64,000 nucleotides of DNA, taken from Streptantibioticus silvisoli. Its GTDB lineage: Bacteria; Actinomycetota; Actinomycetes; Streptomycetales; Streptomycetaceae. The stretch spans positions 186,001-250,000 of the forward strand of contig NZ_JAAGKO020000001.1 in NCBI RefSeq assembly GCF_027947535.2, read 5' to 3'. This document shows, one piece after another, positions 6,331 to 11,457 of the stretch (positions are counted from its first letter, which is position 1; each line of letters begins with the position of its first letter). A program made the translations under genes and the position numbers. Under the pieces are notes generated by a model, which was not told the origin of the DNA, made no database searches, and saw only the letters and a list, made by a program, of their open reading frames with translations.

Positions 6331-6840
6331 TCAGGCCGCGGAGACGGTGCCGGGGGTGCCGTGGTCGTCGGCGGTCGTGCTGAGTTGGCCGTGGAGTCCC
6401 GCGAGTCCTATGGCCAGTGCGCGCCGCTCGGCCGGGGGCATGGCGTCGATGGCGTGCTGGAGAACGCTCTCGCGCTGCTCGCGGATGCGTTCCAGGTGTG
6501 CCCTGCCCGCGGTGGTCAGCCGCAGGGTGACTTCCCGTCCGCTGTCGGGGCTCGGCAGCCGCTCCAGGAAGCCGATGGCCTGCAGGCGGTCGCACAGCCG
6601 GCTGACGGACGGGGGCGCGGTGCCGAGCCGCCGGCACAGGGTCCGCATCCGGATGCCCTCGTCGCGGTCGACGATGTACATCAGGCGCAGTTGGGAGGCG
6701 GAGGCCGGAGCGGTGCCGGCGGACTCCCTGGCGCGTTCCCCCATCACGTGGAGGAGTTCGATGATGCCGCTGGCGGACTGGGTGGCCTGGTGGGAGAACC
6801 CGCCCGGGACGAGATCTGGCGCTGGCATCTGCTTCCCCAT
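6331..6840 (-). CDS. MarR-family transcriptional regulator
   Basis: The 169-residue product is a winged-helix MarR protein. Residues about 45-120 contain SQLRLMYIVDRDEGIRMRTL, the recognition helix region APPSVSRLCDRLQAIGFLER, and the wing PDSGREVTLRLTTAGRAHLE. It is the last gene of a leftward set (PP2C phosphatase, B12-binding protein, STAS protein), 55 bp after the STAS gene, so co-transcription is likely. The 22-bp inverted repeat upstream of the phosphatase (10119-10140) is a candidate binding site, which would make the operon autoregulated; this is inference. Confidence 0.9.
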   Translation of the reverse strand: MGKQMPAPDLVPGGFSHQATQSASGIIELLHVMGERARESAGTAPASASQLRLMYIVDRDEGIRMRTLCRRLGTAPPSVSRLCDRLQAIGFLERLPSPDSGREVTLRLTTAGRAHLERIREQRESVLQHAIDAMPPAERRALAIGLAGLHGQLSTTADDHGTPGTVSAA

Positions 6841-6895
6841 CGGTATGTGTGTCCCCGTCCCGTGCGAGCGTTCCGTACGGGGGCGGGCAGTGGCG

Positions 6896-7327
6896 TCAGG
6901 TGGTGCCGTCCGGTCCGGTGGGGCGGGCCGCTCTCGCTTCCGCGCTGTTCTTGGGGGACTCCCCCGCGCCGGCGGGAGAGCTCGCGGCGCCGTTGGGGGA
7001 CGCCGTGAGGTGTTCCAGGGTACCGGTGATGGTCAGCAGCCGGTCCAGCCGTGCGGTGCGGTCGTCCAGATGGAGGCGGACGCCGGCTTCGCCGGTGCGG
7101 CGGTGGATCATCAGCAGGACGGACAGCCCCATGGAGTCGACGGTGCCCAGCCCGGCGCAGTGCAGGTGCAGGTGCTCCAGGCGCGGCCGGCCGGCGAGTT
7201 GCCCGGTGACGGCGGCCAGGAGGCGGTCGGCGTTGTCGTAGTCGAGGTCGCCCCGCAGCTCGATGCGGACGGTGGCCTCGGTGTCGACCGTGGTCAGGCG
7301 CAGACGGGCGGAGGGCATCATGGTCAT
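6896..7327 (-). CDS. STAS-domain anti-anti-sigma factor-like protein
   Basis: This 143-residue protein is a single STAS domain (about residues 8-112) followed by a disordered Ala/Pro-rich tail. The phosphorylatable serine sits in TVDSMGLSVL (Ser65), matching SpoIIAA/RsbV. In partner switching, unphosphorylated STAS protein captures an anti-sigma kinase and frees a sigma factor, and a PP2C phosphatase reactivates it. The start ATG overlaps the stop of the upstream B12-protein gene (ATGA), giving translational coupling. No anti-sigma kinase gene is in this window, so the partner must be encoded elsewhere. Confidence 0.9.
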   Translation of the reverse strand: MTMMPSARLRLTTVDTEATVRIELRGDLDYDNADRLLAAVTGQLAGRPRLEHLHLHCAGLGTVDSMGLSVLLMIHRRTGEAGVRLHLDDRTARLDRLLTITGTLEHLTASPNGAASSPAGAGESPKNSAEARAARPTGPDGTT

Positions 7328-8418
7328 GCTCGGTTCCCGGCGGTGGTGGCGTGGAGAGGGATGAGTGCGTCGGTGCCGCGGCGGAGGATGCGGGTGGCCC
7401 GGGGGAAGTCCTTGAGTTCACGGGCCAGGATGCCCAGGGCCGGCGGCAGGCTGTGGGCGGGCACGCCGCGCGCGGTGAGGATCTCGGCGGTCCAGGTGAT
7501 GAACCCGGTGAAGAGTTCCTCGTCGCCGAGGTACAGGGCCGTGGCGAGGAACTCCACGATGTGTGCGAGGTCCTCCGCCGTGTGCTCGCGCTGGAGTTCG
7601 CTGTACGCGCGCATGGCGGGGAACGCGTCCTCCAGGGCGGTGAAGACGGTGCGCACGAGCGAGGCGCTGCCCCGGGCGACCATGGTGTATTCCTGGTCGG
7701 CCAGGTGGGGCAGGTCGTCCAGCTGCTGGTGGTCGGGCTGCGGTCGTGCCAGCGGTTGCCCGGCGAGGCGGTCGGCCGCGGCGCGGGCGTCGGGTGCCCA
7801 GGCGTCGGCGCCGAGCCGGCGGGCGTAGCGGCCGTCGGGCCCGAAGGCGGCGCCTCCCACCAGGACGGGTGCGCCGACCGACTGGCAGGCGGTGATCGCG
7901 GCGTGCGCGGTGGGCAGCCGGGTCGCTATCGAACCGGACAGGGCGACCGCGTCGGCGGCGGTGCGGTGCAGGTGGGTGATGAGGTGCGGGGTGGGGACCT
8001 GGGCGCCGAGGTAGTCCACCCGCCAGCCGCGCAGTTTCAGCACCTCGGCCAGCAGGCGGGCGGGCAGCGCGTGCCATTCGCCGTCGACGCAGGCCACCGT
8101 GATCCGGCCGCGTTCGGGAGCGGTGCGGGCTGCGGGGTGCAGGGCGAGTGCGGCGACGGCCCGTTCGTTGACGGCGGTCGCGGCGTGTTCCTGCGCCACG
8201 CTGAGGCGGTTTGCGGCCCACTCGCGGCCCACCTTGCCCTGGACCGGGGCGATCACGTCCAGCAGCACGCTCTCCGGGTCGACACCGTCGTCCACGGCGC
8301 GCAGCACCAGGTCGGTGGCCGTGTACTCGTCGGCCGCCGAGACGGCCTCCCACAGTTCGTCGGCCAGCTGCCGGACTGCTTCGTCGCCGCGCAGGCGGTG
8401 GGACGTGCGGGTGCTCAT
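7324..8418 (-). CDS. cobalamin-binding protein, W-x9-EH photoreceptor type
   Basis: The 364-residue product has three parts. A helical-bundle cap (about 10-95) contains W67 followed after exactly nine residues by E77-H78, the W-x9-EH signature of CarH/LitR/AerR-type light-sensing cobalamin domains. A Rossmann-like B12-binding domain (about 105-225) has DGEWH (His116 as probable lower ligand), DYLGAQVP and VGGAAFG. A helical C-terminal domain of about 130 residues is of unknown role. No MerR DNA-binding domain is fused, so output is probably protein-protein. ATG 8418 overlaps the phosphatase stop, and its own stop overlaps the STAS start. The longer upstream frame is antisense-like, so 8418 is preferred. 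Confidence 0.88.
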   Translation of the reverse strand: MSTRTSHRLRGDEAVRQLADELWEAVSAADEYTATDLVLRAVDDGVDPESVLLDVIAPVQGKVGREWAANRLSVAQEHAATAVNERAVAALALHPAARTAPERGRITVACVDGEWHALPARLLAEVLKLRGWRVDYLGAQVPTPHLITHLHRTAADAVALSGSIATRLPTAHAAITACQSVGAPVLVGGAAFGPDGRYARRLGADAWAPDARAAADRLAGQPLARPQPDHQQLDDLPHLADQEYTMVARGSASLVRTVFTALEDAFPAMRAYSELQREHTAEDLAHIVEFLATALYLGDEELFTGFITWTAEILTARGVPAHSLPPALGILARELKDFPRATRILRRGTDALIPLHATTAGNRA

Positions 8419-10070
8419 GCGGTGAACCTGCCCCGGGTGTGCCCGTTCACCGCACTGAGATGCCGGGTGCGCGGTGCGGAGATCACGACGACGGCCATGT
8501 CGTCGTGGGAACCGTCGCCGACCCACTGGGAGGCGAGCATCTGGATGCGTTCCACGATGCTCTCGGACGGCATGCCCGCGCACTCCGACAGGGCGCGCTG
8601 GAGGCGTTCGTCACCGAACTGGGTGCCGCCCATCGGCCCGCCCTTGGCCTCGGTGATCCCGTCGGTGTAGAGCACGCAGGACTCGCCGGGCGCCAGGGTG
8701 AGGGCGGCGGTGTGGGTGGGCACGTTGGGCAGGGCCCCCACCAGGGTGCCGTGGGTGCGGGCCTCCTCCACCGCGCCGCTCGCGCGCAGGATCAGCGGCC
8801 TCGGATGGCCGGCGCTGGTCAGCCGCAGGTCCACCGCGTTGCCCTTGCGTACGGCGGAGGCCAGGACCAGGGTCGCGAACCGGGTGTGGTGGGAGTTGAG
8901 CAGCGCGGTGTTCAGCAGGCTGATCATCCGCTGGTGGTCGTCGGCCAGCGGGAGCAGGGCGTGCAGGGTGTTGCGGATCTTGCCGGTCAGCACGGCGGCT
9001 TCCAGCCCCTTGCCGCACACGTCGCCGAGCGCGACCAGCGACGCCTCGCCGTCGACGACCGCGGGGTGCACGTCGTAGAAGTCACCGCCGACCCGGTCGT
9101 GGTCCATCGACGGCCGGTAGCCGCCGGCGAAGTCCACCCCGGAGATCTGGTGCAGCGACGGCGGAAGCAGCTCCCGCATCAGGATCTCGGTGATCGACGC
9201 CTGCTCCGCGTACAGGCGGGCGGCCGACATCGCCGCTCCCGCACGGGCGGCGAACAGCCGGGCGAAGACTTCCTCGCCCTCGGTGAACGCCGCCGTCTGC
9301 GAACGGCGCAACAGCACGAGGGCACCGGCCGGTACGCCGTGACCGGGCAGCGGGGTGACGACTATCGAGCCGATCGGGCCGAAGCCCTCGGGCACCATCC
9401 ACTCCGGCGCGGCGGCCGGATCGATCCAGCGCGAAGGCACCGGCGGGAAGCCGCGCAGCGCCTCGCCGAGACCCGGCACGTCGTCGGGGTCCACCGACTC
9501 GTGGGACAGCACGGGGTGGCCGCCGCGCAGGCAGGTCACCACCGGCAGTTGCGGCCCCTGCGCCGGCGCGATGACCAGCGCCGCGTCGGCGAGGTTGTCC
9601 GCGGCCATCTGCGCGGTCACATCCATGCAACGCCCCAGGTTGAGGGAGGACAGCAGCATGCTGGAGACCTTGGCCAGGAACGCGGTGCGCTCGCGCTCCA
9701 TGTGCAGTGCCTCCCGCACCAGCCGGTGATCGGTGTCGTCGACCAGCCACCACACCACCGTGCCGTCGGCCCGCACGCTGGGATGCGCCTCGAAGCTGCG
9801 CTCACCGATCACCCCCGAAAGCGGTGGTTGCGCCGCCCGGTCGGCCGCCGTATCGGGGCACCGCAACGCGTCGTGCGCCACCGACAGCCAGCCCGGGGCC
9901 ACGTCCGCCAGACACGTCCCGGGACGGGCCGCCGGCAGCAGCAGTCCGGCGGCGTCGTTGCGCACGACGACCGTGCCCCGGACGTCAGCGACCAGGACGG
10001 GATACGGGGCGTCGCTCCAGGGGGAGCCAGGCTCTGTGTCGGCACCGGTTCGCGCTTGGGTGGTGACCAA
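8415..10070 (-). CDS. PAS-GAF-PP2C (SpoIIE/RsbU-type) serine phosphatase
   Basis: The 551-residue sensor phosphatase has an N-terminal PAS-like domain (about 15-120), a GAF domain (about 130-285) and a PP2C/SpoIIE catalytic domain (about 315-540). The metal-binding motifs VGGDFYDV, GDVCGKG, YTDGITEAKG and HDDMAVVVI are all present, so it should be active. There is no HATPase kinase domain and no membrane segment. Its expected substrate is the phospho-STAS protein two genes downstream. The best in-frame start is TTG 10070, but the Shine-Dalgarno match is weak. It is first in the operon and overlaps the B12 gene by 4 bp. Confidence 0.9.
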   Translation of the reverse strand: MVTTQARTGADTEPGSPWSDAPYPVLVADVRGTVVVRNDAAGLLLPAARPGTCLADVAPGWLSVAHDALRCPDTAADRAAQPPLSGVIGERSFEAHPSVRADGTVVWWLVDDTDHRLVREALHMERERTAFLAKVSSMLLSSLNLGRCMDVTAQMAADNLADAALVIAPAQGPQLPVVTCLRGGHPVLSHESVDPDDVPGLGEALRGFPPVPSRWIDPAAAPEWMVPEGFGPIGSIVVTPLPGHGVPAGALVLLRRSQTAAFTEGEEVFARLFAARAGAAMSAARLYAEQASITEILMRELLPPSLHQISGVDFAGGYRPSMDHDRVGGDFYDVHPAVVDGEASLVALGDVCGKGLEAAVLTGKIRNTLHALLPLADDHQRMISLLNTALLNSHHTRFATLVLASAVRKGNAVDLRLTSAGHPRPLILRASGAVEEARTHGTLVGALPNVPTHTAALTLAPGESCVLYTDGITEAKGGPMGGTQFGDERLQRALSECAGMPSESIVERIQMLASQWVGDGSHDDMAVVVISAPRTRHLSAVNGHTRGRFTA

Positions 10071-10118
10071 ATGTTGAGGACCCGCTGGGCGAATCCCTCA
10101 CCTCATCGACTCGAAGAA

Positions 10119-10140
10119 ATCGTTGCCTTGGGGCAACGAT
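10119..10140. promoter_or_regulatory. 22-bp perfect inverted repeat, probable operator
   Basis: The arms ATCGTTGCC and GGCAACGAT pair perfectly over 9 bp around a TTGG centre. The repeat lies 48 bp upstream of the phosphatase start, where promoter elements are expected. Symmetry and size suit a MarR-family dimer, and a MarR gene closes the same operon. Confidence 0.6.
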
Positions 10141-10483
10141 CCCGCATGTCGTGTCCTCCTGGCAACCCGCGCGCCCGCCACCGGCGTGGCGTCCGGCCAC
10201 TGTCGGTGATCACGGCCGAGCCGTCACCGCGCTGTGCGGACCGGCCCGGCGGCGGCGATCCACCGGCCGTTCCCCACCGACCGGATCGCCCGGAACGACC
10301 GCGAAGTCACCGCTGGTGACCCCGCAGGACCGGCATTCCTGCACCGCCCTGCTCCAGCCCGGCGTCGTCCTCCGCGACGCCTTCGGTGCGGCCGCGCGAC
10401 ACTTCGGCCGACCCGCCGGCCCAACGCCCATGTGTGTGGGGAAGGTGGGGGAAAATTCACCGGGCCCCACCATGATCACCACC

Positions 10484-10489
10484 TAGGAT
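10484..10489 (+). promoter_or_regulatory. -10 element for a leaderless transcript
   Basis: TAGGAT ends 8 bases before the ATG at 10498, with no Shine-Dalgarno sequence between. This spacing places transcription start at or next to the A of the ATG, a common arrangement in Streptomyces. The 400-bp region to the left (10141-10483) shows no gene. Confidence 0.5.
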
Positions 10490-10497
10490 CGCCGGTT

Positions 10498-11457
10498 ATG
10501 GTTGATCCCTATCCTCCGACCAGTCCCTACGACTCCGGATTCCTCGACACCGGAGACGGCAACCGCGTCTACTTCGAACAACTCGGCAACCCCGAAGGCA
10601 AGCCCGCCCTCAACGTGCACGGCGGCCCGGGGTCCGGCGCGTCACGGCGGCCGACGAGGGCCTGGGACCCCGACCGGTACCGCCTGATCCGCTTCGACCA
10701 GCGCAACTGCGGTCGCAGCACCCCGCACGCCAGCGACCCGGCGGCGGACATGAGCCTGAACACCACGCGGCACCTGATCGACGACATGGAGCGGCTGCGC
10801 GAGCACCTGGGCATCGAACGGTGGCTGCTGAACGGCGCGTCCTGGGGCTCGACGCTCGTCCTGGCCTACGCGCAACAACACCCCGAGCGGGTCAGCGAGA
10901 TGATCATCCCGGCGGTGACGACGACCCGCCGCTCCGAGATCGACTGGCTCTACCGCGGCGCCGGGCGCTTCCACCCCGAGGCATGGGACCGGTTCCGCGA
11001 CGGCGTCCCCGCGGACGAGCGGGACGGCGACCTGCTCGCGGCCTACGCGCGGCTGATGGAGCACCCCGACCGGGCGATCCGCGAGAAGGCCGCCACCGAC
11101 TGGCTCACCTGGGAGGACGCGGTCATCTCCGGCGAACCCAACGGCGTCCCCGGCATGTACAGCGACCGCGAGGTCGACGACCGGATCGCGTTCGTCCGCA
11201 TCTGCGCCCACTTCTTCAGCAACGGCGCGTGGCTTGAGGAGGACCAACTGCTGCGCAACGCCCACAAGTTGGCCGGTATCCCGGCGGTGCTGGTCCACGG
11301 GCGGCACGACATGGGCAGCCCGGTGCGGACGGCGTGGGAGCTGGCGAAGGCATGGCCGGACGCGCGACTGCACATCATCGAGGACTCGGGGCACGCCGGA
11401 AGCGACGCGATGCACCAGGCGATCCGGACGGCCATCGAGGAGTTCAAGGACCGGTGA
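10498..11457 (+). CDS. pip: proline iminopeptidase (alpha/beta hydrolase, S33)
   Basis: The 319-residue enzyme removes N-terminal proline from peptides. Visible motifs are the oxyanion segment NVHGGPGSGAS (near residue 40), the nucleophile elbow NGASWGSTL with Ser of G-x-S-x-G (near 118), the acid HGRHD (near 277) and the catalytic His in EDSGHAG (near 303). Length and layout fit the Pip family; the His segment usually reads GHS and here reads GHAG. No signal peptide is present, so it is cytosolic. The start at ATG 10498 is supported by TAGGAT placed for a leaderless mRNA. The gene is monocistronic. Confidence 0.93.
   Translation: MVDPYPPTSPYDSGFLDTGDGNRVYFEQLGNPEGKPALNVHGGPGSGASRRPTRAWDPDRYRLIRFDQRNCGRSTPHASDPAADMSLNTTRHLIDDMERLREHLGIERWLLNGASWGSTLVLAYAQQHPERVSEMIIPAVTTTRRSEIDWLYRGAGRFHPEAWDRFRDGVPADERDGDLLAAYARLMEHPDRAIREKAATDWLTWEDAVISGEPNGVPGMYSDREVDDRIAFVRICAHFFSNGAWLEEDQLLRNAHKLAGIPAVLVHGRHDMGSPVRTAWELAKAWPDARLHIIEDSGHAGSDAMHQAIRTAIEEFKDR

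Follow-up and report, generated by a model that had tools for sequence, protein, structure and literature searches.

The closest described relative of the system considered here is SasPcob, a photocobilin from Saccharothrix syringae (PDB IDs: 8j2w and 8j2x). In the parts of the 2024 paper that bear on it (PMC10979010), Trp61 and Glu71-His72 are placed around the adenosyl group and at the dimer interface, His108 is the lower ligand, and Asp270 and Trp296 belong to the biliverdin pocket, with His137 facing biliverdin across the dimer. AbPcob has a His at the position of the Asp and binds biliverdin poorly (PMC10979010). SasPcob alters the activity of a separate enzyme in a light-dependent manner, and this effect is reversed in the absence of biliverdin. 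The same pages name STAS, SpoIIE and PP2C proteins as potential partners of SasPcob and call the function of standalone photocobilins "less clear". A second point of reference is provided by partner-driven phosphatases. When RsbU is bound by its partner, its helical linker is rigidified and the PPM domains dimerise, and the relevant part of PMC12143880 proposes the same for RsbP and RsbQ. Here we describe an operon from the soil actinobacterium Streptantibioticus silvisoli, located in a 64-kb window (the whole stretch of DNA that was analysed, to which all coordinates refer), in which a photocobilin gene lies between the genes of a PAS-GAF-PP2C phosphatase and a STAS protein.

We propose that this operon encodes a photocobilin-controlled partner-switching system, in which light would act through the photocobilin on the phosphatase, and from there through the STAS protein on a SigB-type sigma factor. 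We assign this reading a probability of about 0.68. All operon genes lie on the minus strand. The phosphatase gene (8415–10070, TTG start, 551 residues) overlaps the photocobilin gene (7324–8418, ATG start, 364 residues) by 4 bp at 8415–8418, and the latter overlaps the STAS gene (6896–7327, 143 residues) by 4 bp at 7324–7327. A MarR-family regulator gene (6331–6840, 169 residues) follows 55 bp 3′ of the STAS gene (spacer 6841–6895). This is the layout that a sequence-only reading of the window had given, and its broader suggestion, that a CarH-type light-responsive B12 domain is coupled to a partner-switching module, is supported by the sequence comparisons below.

Identity of the photocobilin and its partners

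By sequence, the B12 protein can be firmly assigned to the photocobilins, a known family of which it is a new member. Its best phmmer matches in the PDB are SasPcob 8j2x and 8j2w (E=6e-86, residues 20–352), followed by AbPcob 8j2y (6e-43), and CarH reaches only ~1e-11. The AlphaFold2 model (predicted local distance difference test, pLDDT, 87; predicted template modelling score, pTM, 0.83) comprises a four-helix cap, the B12 fold and a C-terminal photoglobin domain, and it matches 8j2w over its full length with a template modelling (TM) score of 0.84 (query) or 0.92 (target) at 48% identity. Pfam detects B12-binding_2 (18–91) and B12-binding (105–214) only, with no DNA-binding domain, including one of the MerR type found in CarH/LitR, just as the sequence-only reading had stated. 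The NCBIfam CarH model scores 65.6, below its cut-off of 400.

The protein contains all of the published signature elements (GxxW, EH, GxxH and GxxxP). The W67-x9-E77-H78 motif and the B12-pocket His noted earlier are present, the His being H116 within GEWH (113–116). Upon alignment, W67, E77 and H78 coincide with the SasPcob residues that surround the adenosyl group at the dimer interface (Trp61 and Glu71-His72), and the counterparts of His108, Asp270, Trp296 and His137 are H116, D283, W309 and H145, respectively. These seven chromophore residues are identical in 81/81 sequences, that is, in the window protein and 80 relatives. The latter are the best 80 of 441 relatives from one scan of named genomes; they were picked for closeness to the window photocobilin, and more distant photocobilins are unrepresented. 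The same seven residues are also identical in a second photocobilin of the same genome. The C-terminal helical region, first taken for an uncharacterised output domain, is on sequence grounds the known photoglobin domain, because the homology to SasPcob extends over the full length and the biliverdin-pocket residues Asp270 and Trp296 are kept as D283 and W309. A biliverdin pocket is therefore predicted.

The phosphatase matches Pfam SpoIIE (PF07228) with E=8e-39, and its GAF domain scores 20.4 bits, slightly below the cut-off of 22.4. The PAS domain has no Pfam match, and a PAS-like fold is seen only in the AlphaFold2 model, so that the PAS-GAF-PP2C assignment made from sequence alone holds with this qualification. 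In the model, a PAS-like domain (25–111), a helix, a GAF domain (145–256), a 37-residue helix (264–300) and a PPM domain (312–531) follow one another, the domain names being read from the secondary structure of the model and Foldseek matches. The nearest solved folds found by Foldseek are Rv1364c RsbU/RsbW, RssB, SiaA and SpoIIE. The five Asp residues of the metal site are kept in 79/79 sequences. As modelled, the protein thus appears to have the features of the RsbU/RsbP type, namely a SpoIIE-type PPM domain with metal-binding Asp residues and a sensor domain joined to it through a helical linker.

The STAS protein has a Pfam STAS match and scores 49.3 with NCBIfam ant_ant_sig, just below the cut-off of 53.45. 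A Ser following a conserved Asp (S65) is kept in 71/73 sequences and aligns with a Ser of SpoIIAA that we take to be the phosphorylated one. S65 is therefore a candidate phosphoserine of this anti-sigma-factor antagonist.

Conservation of the trio and the proposed light pathway

The gene trio is conserved across several actinobacterial orders. The 80 loci come from Streptomyces, Actinacidiphila, Amycolatopsis, Saccharothrix, Kutzneria, Actinomadura, Nocardioides, Mycobacterium, Mycolicibacterium and Pseudonocardia. By tblastn, the phosphatase gene is found upstream in 79/80 and the STAS gene downstream in 77/80, and a MarR gene follows the STAS gene in 28/80. With called genes, the phosphatase lies directly upstream in 78 loci and the STAS gene directly downstream in 72, with 4-bp overlaps in most. 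The arrangement is not due to chance, since almost every one of the 80 loci shares it and all 81 sequences keep the seven chromophore residues. In a family sample, a photocobilin is detected at E≤1e-30 in 149/394 genomes.

A HATPase_c_2 (RsbW-like) kinase gene lies at most five genes upstream or six downstream of the photocobilin gene in 32/80 loci, the assignment of this neighbour family being based on one scanned representative, and 25 of these 32 loci also have a STAS neighbour on the same strand. Six Amycolatopsis loci (L079, L080, L082, L100, L103 and L121) show the order STAS, kinase, phosphatase, photocobilin, STAS. This corresponds to a complete RsbV/RsbW/phosphatase set and is the strongest indication that the trio acts on a sigma switch. 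The second photocobilin of the same genome (L134, contig C47:42500-62400), 61% identical to the window protein, also favours the proposal. Its surroundings, ~8 kb to each side, form a signalling island that contains two MarR genes, three SpoIIE-type phosphatases, of which one has a response-regulator domain, two sigma-70 factors and a carotenoid oxygenase of the RPE65 family, with the sigma factors and the phosphatases flanking the photocobilin gene.

Some loci show further variations. In seven (L070, L071, L073, L074, L075, L096 and L097), an RsbV-like STAS and an RsbW-like kinase gene are divergent from the phosphatase gene, and the palindrome described below, where present, sits between both units. 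Nine Streptomyces loci (L044, L046, L048, L054, L057, L059, L063, L064 and L069) have an extra gene of ~310–400 aa directly upstream of the photocobilin-linked phosphatase, and its product clusters with PP2C proteins. L081 has a second, shorter photocobilin-like gene, which lies a few genes further downstream and in opposite orientation to the first.

We suggest the following sequence of events. The photocobilin is predicted to load adenosylcobalamin, for green light, and probably also biliverdin, for red light. In the dark, W67/E77/H78 would hold the adenosyl group in a dimeric protein; in the light, the Co–C bond would be cleaved and the dimer would open. By analogy with RsbQ–RsbP and RsbT–RsbU, the photocobilin may bind the phosphatase, whose helical linker would relay the change to the PPM domain. 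This role is suggested because RsbU and RsbP are partner-driven and SasPcob has a light-dependent effect on a separate enzyme. The phosphatase would then dephosphorylate the STAS protein at S65 and, in loci that also encode an RsbV-like STAS nearby, this protein too. In its dephosphorylated form, the antagonist would capture an RsbW-type kinase, releasing the SigB-type sigma factor. Two elements would govern expression, a probable MarR operator at the promoter and a hairpin that separates the Shine-Dalgarno (SD) sequence from the start codon. The steps that we infer here are the binding to the phosphatase, the direction of gating, the sigma-factor target, the MarR binding and the effect of the hairpin.

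Several points weigh against this proposal. The contact between photocobilin and phosphatase is argued from analogy, and it may be the STAS protein, not the phosphatase, that is the conserved partner. Because the SasPcob effect is reversed without biliverdin, the sign of the light effect is not predictable. No kinase or sigma factor adjoining the window operon was recognised in the open reading frame list and gene calls of the window, the neighbours having been scanned in part. In addition, 24/149 photocobilin genomes lack a PF01126 heme oxygenase, and some species may do without biliverdin. The co-occurrence of heme oxygenase with photocobilin is weak (125/149 photocobilin genomes vs 184/245 others in the family sample, hand count; p=0.044). 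The genome studied here has one heme oxygenase, on a contig different from those of both photocobilins.

If the STAS protein were the target, or part of a three-way complex, light would determine how much substrate is available to the phosphatase, and not how active the phosphatase is. The STAS gene comes directly after the photocobilin gene and usually overlaps it, which fits such a contact, and non-heme globin domains also occur in the stressosome protein RsbR, where they are combined with a STAS domain. RsbR served as a globin outgroup, as part of PMC10151467 indicates. However, the linkage to the phosphatase is equally tight (79 vs 77 of 80), and control of PAS/GAF phosphatases by a partner is a known mode. 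We regard this reading as unlikely. It is more doubtful still that the B12 protein senses cobalamin status or bilin with an incidental sensitivity to light. The activity of AbDPcob is indeed changed by the presence of the adenosyl group alone (apo vs adenosylcobalamin in the dark), but all light-signature and dimer-interface residues are invariant in the 81 sequences and, among solved structures, the closest relative is a dimer switched by light. Finally, weak similarity to MtbC/MtgC and to MetH corrinoid domains might recall a metabolic methyl-transfer protein in an accidental neighbourhood, an idea that is scarcely credible given the far better photocobilin match over the whole length, photoglobin domain included, and a trio kept across orders.

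The palindrome and the leader hairpin

Upstream of the operon, a palindrome ATCGTTGCC-N4-GGCAACGAT is found at 10119–10140, with the core TTGCC-N4-GGCAA at 10123–10136. Perfect palindromes of at least 8 bp caught few operators, and the motif was fixed after a relaxed search. Within 600 bp upstream of the phosphatase gene, the core is present in 35/79 loci, every time 59–108 bp before the start, and eight copies occur elsewhere in the 1.56 Mb of locus sequence. It is found in 23/27 loci with an adjacent MarR gene vs 12/52 without (p=1.5e-7, a value that ignores relatedness). Shuffled versions of the window contain a mean of 0.02 copies. The whole genome has two copies, the second in a stretch that by eye resembles ribosomal-protein coding sequence. 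The motif is not rare everywhere, as 31 relatives have 1–8 copies per genome; this is below the reversed control pattern in nearly all of them. No exact-arm copy was found at the promoter of the second photocobilin, where a one-mismatch version can be seen by eye. An GGTTGCCA block (10160–10167, minus strand) is conserved ~20 bp upstream of the palindrome in the upstream-region alignment and resembles a −35 element, which suggests a promoter role.

The simplest reading is that the palindrome is a probable MarR operator at the promoter, a candidate assignment qualified by the 12 loci in which it occurs without an adjacent MarR gene. MarR, which is confined to a sub-clade of operons, is more likely to regulate the operon than to be one of its outputs. 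Just 3′ of the MarR gene, the intergenic segment 6148–6300 (plus strand) contains recurring phrases such as CTGCGACTCCGTGCGG, which by eye form a small tandem-like array.

The leader of the phosphatase gene has an unusual arrangement. Its SD sequence GAGGTGA (10098–10104, minus strand) is separated from the start codon by 27 nt, far beyond the usual range, and the interval is occupied by a hairpin (10077–10097, minus strand) with a 9-bp stem and the triloop CCA. An earlier start is excluded, since an in-frame TGA sits inside the SD and there is no other ATG, GTG or TTG before residue 36. An ATT 3′ of the SD was likewise rejected as the start, the same place being GTT, GTC or ATC in relatives, and by eye a coding leader is contradicted by length changes that break the frame in L104 and L106. 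Aligned leaders show GAGGTGA, the hairpin, ~6 nt, and then TTG, GTG or ATG. With a minimum free energy of at most −9 and all in-frame starts allowed for every gene class, the SD-hairpin-start arrangement is present in 62/78 phosphatase genes vs 15/974 other genes, and in the same loci in 0/81 photocobilin, 0/81 STAS, 0/38 MarR and 0/12 other PP2C genes. The 16 phosphatase loci without it comprise seven from Amycolatopsis (L079, L080, L082, L100, L101, L103 and L121), five from Mycobacterium or Mycolicibacterium (L109, L110, L117, L119 and L120) and four others (L089, L093, L105 and L107). The palindrome lies 27–61 nt upstream of the SD in at least 16 of 21 hairpin sites, among the matches listed.

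Single sequences yield modest folding z-scores (−2.06 for the 37-nt element and −1.29 for 60 nt), and the support for the hairpin is therefore comparative. In clade A (33 distinct sequences), the stem is 99.7% paired vs at most 57.2% when slid. One pair is altered on both sides, in 10 sequences, with a covariation score reached in 0/500 shuffles; other variation is mostly one-sided, and the pair and type counts are no higher than in shuffles. A two-clade set of 12 sequences shows changes on both sides at three pairs. These covariation analyses are better tests than the pair count of 29 distinct triloop sequences (221/232 standard cells; shuffles mean 166, maximum 180), which includes a few badly anchored rows (L113, L085, L087 and L108). 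Alignments A2 and A3 were used, as MAFFT misregistered clade B in A1; A2 covers 33/55 matched loci, some with insertions or near-duplicate sequences having been left out. A covariance model gave 36 matches in 33/388 family genomes, some of which may share species with the model-building loci. By hand comparison, 33 of these 36 lie ~1.7–2.3 kb upstream of a photocobilin gene on the same strand, and the remaining three are the weakest (E 0.001–0.003). In the genome studied here, the near-variant leader pattern has one exact match, in the window operon, and 76 matches with 1–3 mismatches. Comparison with plasmids gave three weak Streptomyces matches. Rfam has no match in 9900–10500 at E≤5, which speaks against a known RNA family.

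Once the hairpin forms, the distance from the end of the SD to the start falls from 27 to 6 nt (A2 columns). We are inclined to read the hairpin as a bridge that unites the SD and start codon into a split ribosome-binding site. The opposite effect, an off-switch that conceals the SD and/or the start codon, has a smaller though appreciable chance. In ensemble folding of 63 sequences, the SD is only ~31% and the start ~37% unpaired (medians), so that a hidden off-state is possible, and in the minimum-energy fold of L094 the clade B SD pairs with a C-rich tract. Yet it is the hairpin between SD and start that is conserved and covaries, and it gives a folded spacing of 6 nt, which argues for the bridge. 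A wider idea, which we put forward tentatively and at slightly under even odds, is that photocobilin partner-switch operons have, besides a private operator of the MarR type, a dedicated RNA control element, a split ribosome-binding site through which folding, temperature or the binding of a ligand or protein would tune translation of the light-gated phosphatase.

Comparison with known systems

The link to STAS and PP2C proteins is not new in outline, as it was proposed earlier for SasPcob of one species. Our literature searches found no prior account of the order-wide operon with kinase neighbours, of the candidate operator or of the leader hairpin, and Schneider 2022, on the photoglobin, may already show some of the neighbourhoods. 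The palindrome and the leader hairpin seem undescribed so far. The operon gives standalone photocobilins concrete, testable partners in genetically tractable Streptomyces, namely a phosphatase and an antagonist, joined in relatives by a kinase. In non-photosynthetic soil bacteria, light is predicted to steer stress or development programmes of the SigB type by way of contacts between proteins, and not by binding to DNA. The leader hairpin, if functional, would add a clean case of a naturally split ribosome-binding site from bacterial chromosomes, and if the RNA-element reading is true, it would represent a widespread chromosomal class tied to a single light-signalling system.

The window protein shares with SasPcob its fold, its 48% full-length identity and the adenosyl, cobalt and biliverdin pocket residues. 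The operon differs from what is described for SasPcob in that its three genes overlap directly and in that many relatives add a kinase, a second STAS gene, the palindrome and the leader hairpin; chromophore binding here is predicted from sequence. As in RsbQ/RsbP and RsbT/RsbU of Bacillus subtilis, a small partner is proposed to control a SpoIIE-type phosphatase that has an N-terminal sensor, a helical linker and a STAS substrate. In place of the alpha/beta hydrolase or kinase homologue of those systems, the partner here is a B12/bilin photoreceptor, and unlike RsbP and RsbU, the phosphatase has both PAS and GAF domains. The cap helices, B12 fold, W-x9-EH motif and lower His are common to CarH/LitR (Foldseek TM ~0.47 over ~205 columns). 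In contrast to these, the window protein has a photoglobin and no DNA-binding domain, and it would act, if at all, via proteins. For the leader, the nearest parallel is found in T4 genes 25 and 38, where a hairpin shortens the distance between SD and start from 27 to 11 nt and from 22 to 5 nt, respectively, as given in the relevant part of PMC3014915. The position of the window hairpin and its change in spacing are of the same kind. Unlike the T4 genes, these are chromosomal operons of actinobacteria, in which the translation effect is suggested by the folding and the ensemble is also compatible with occlusion of the SD.

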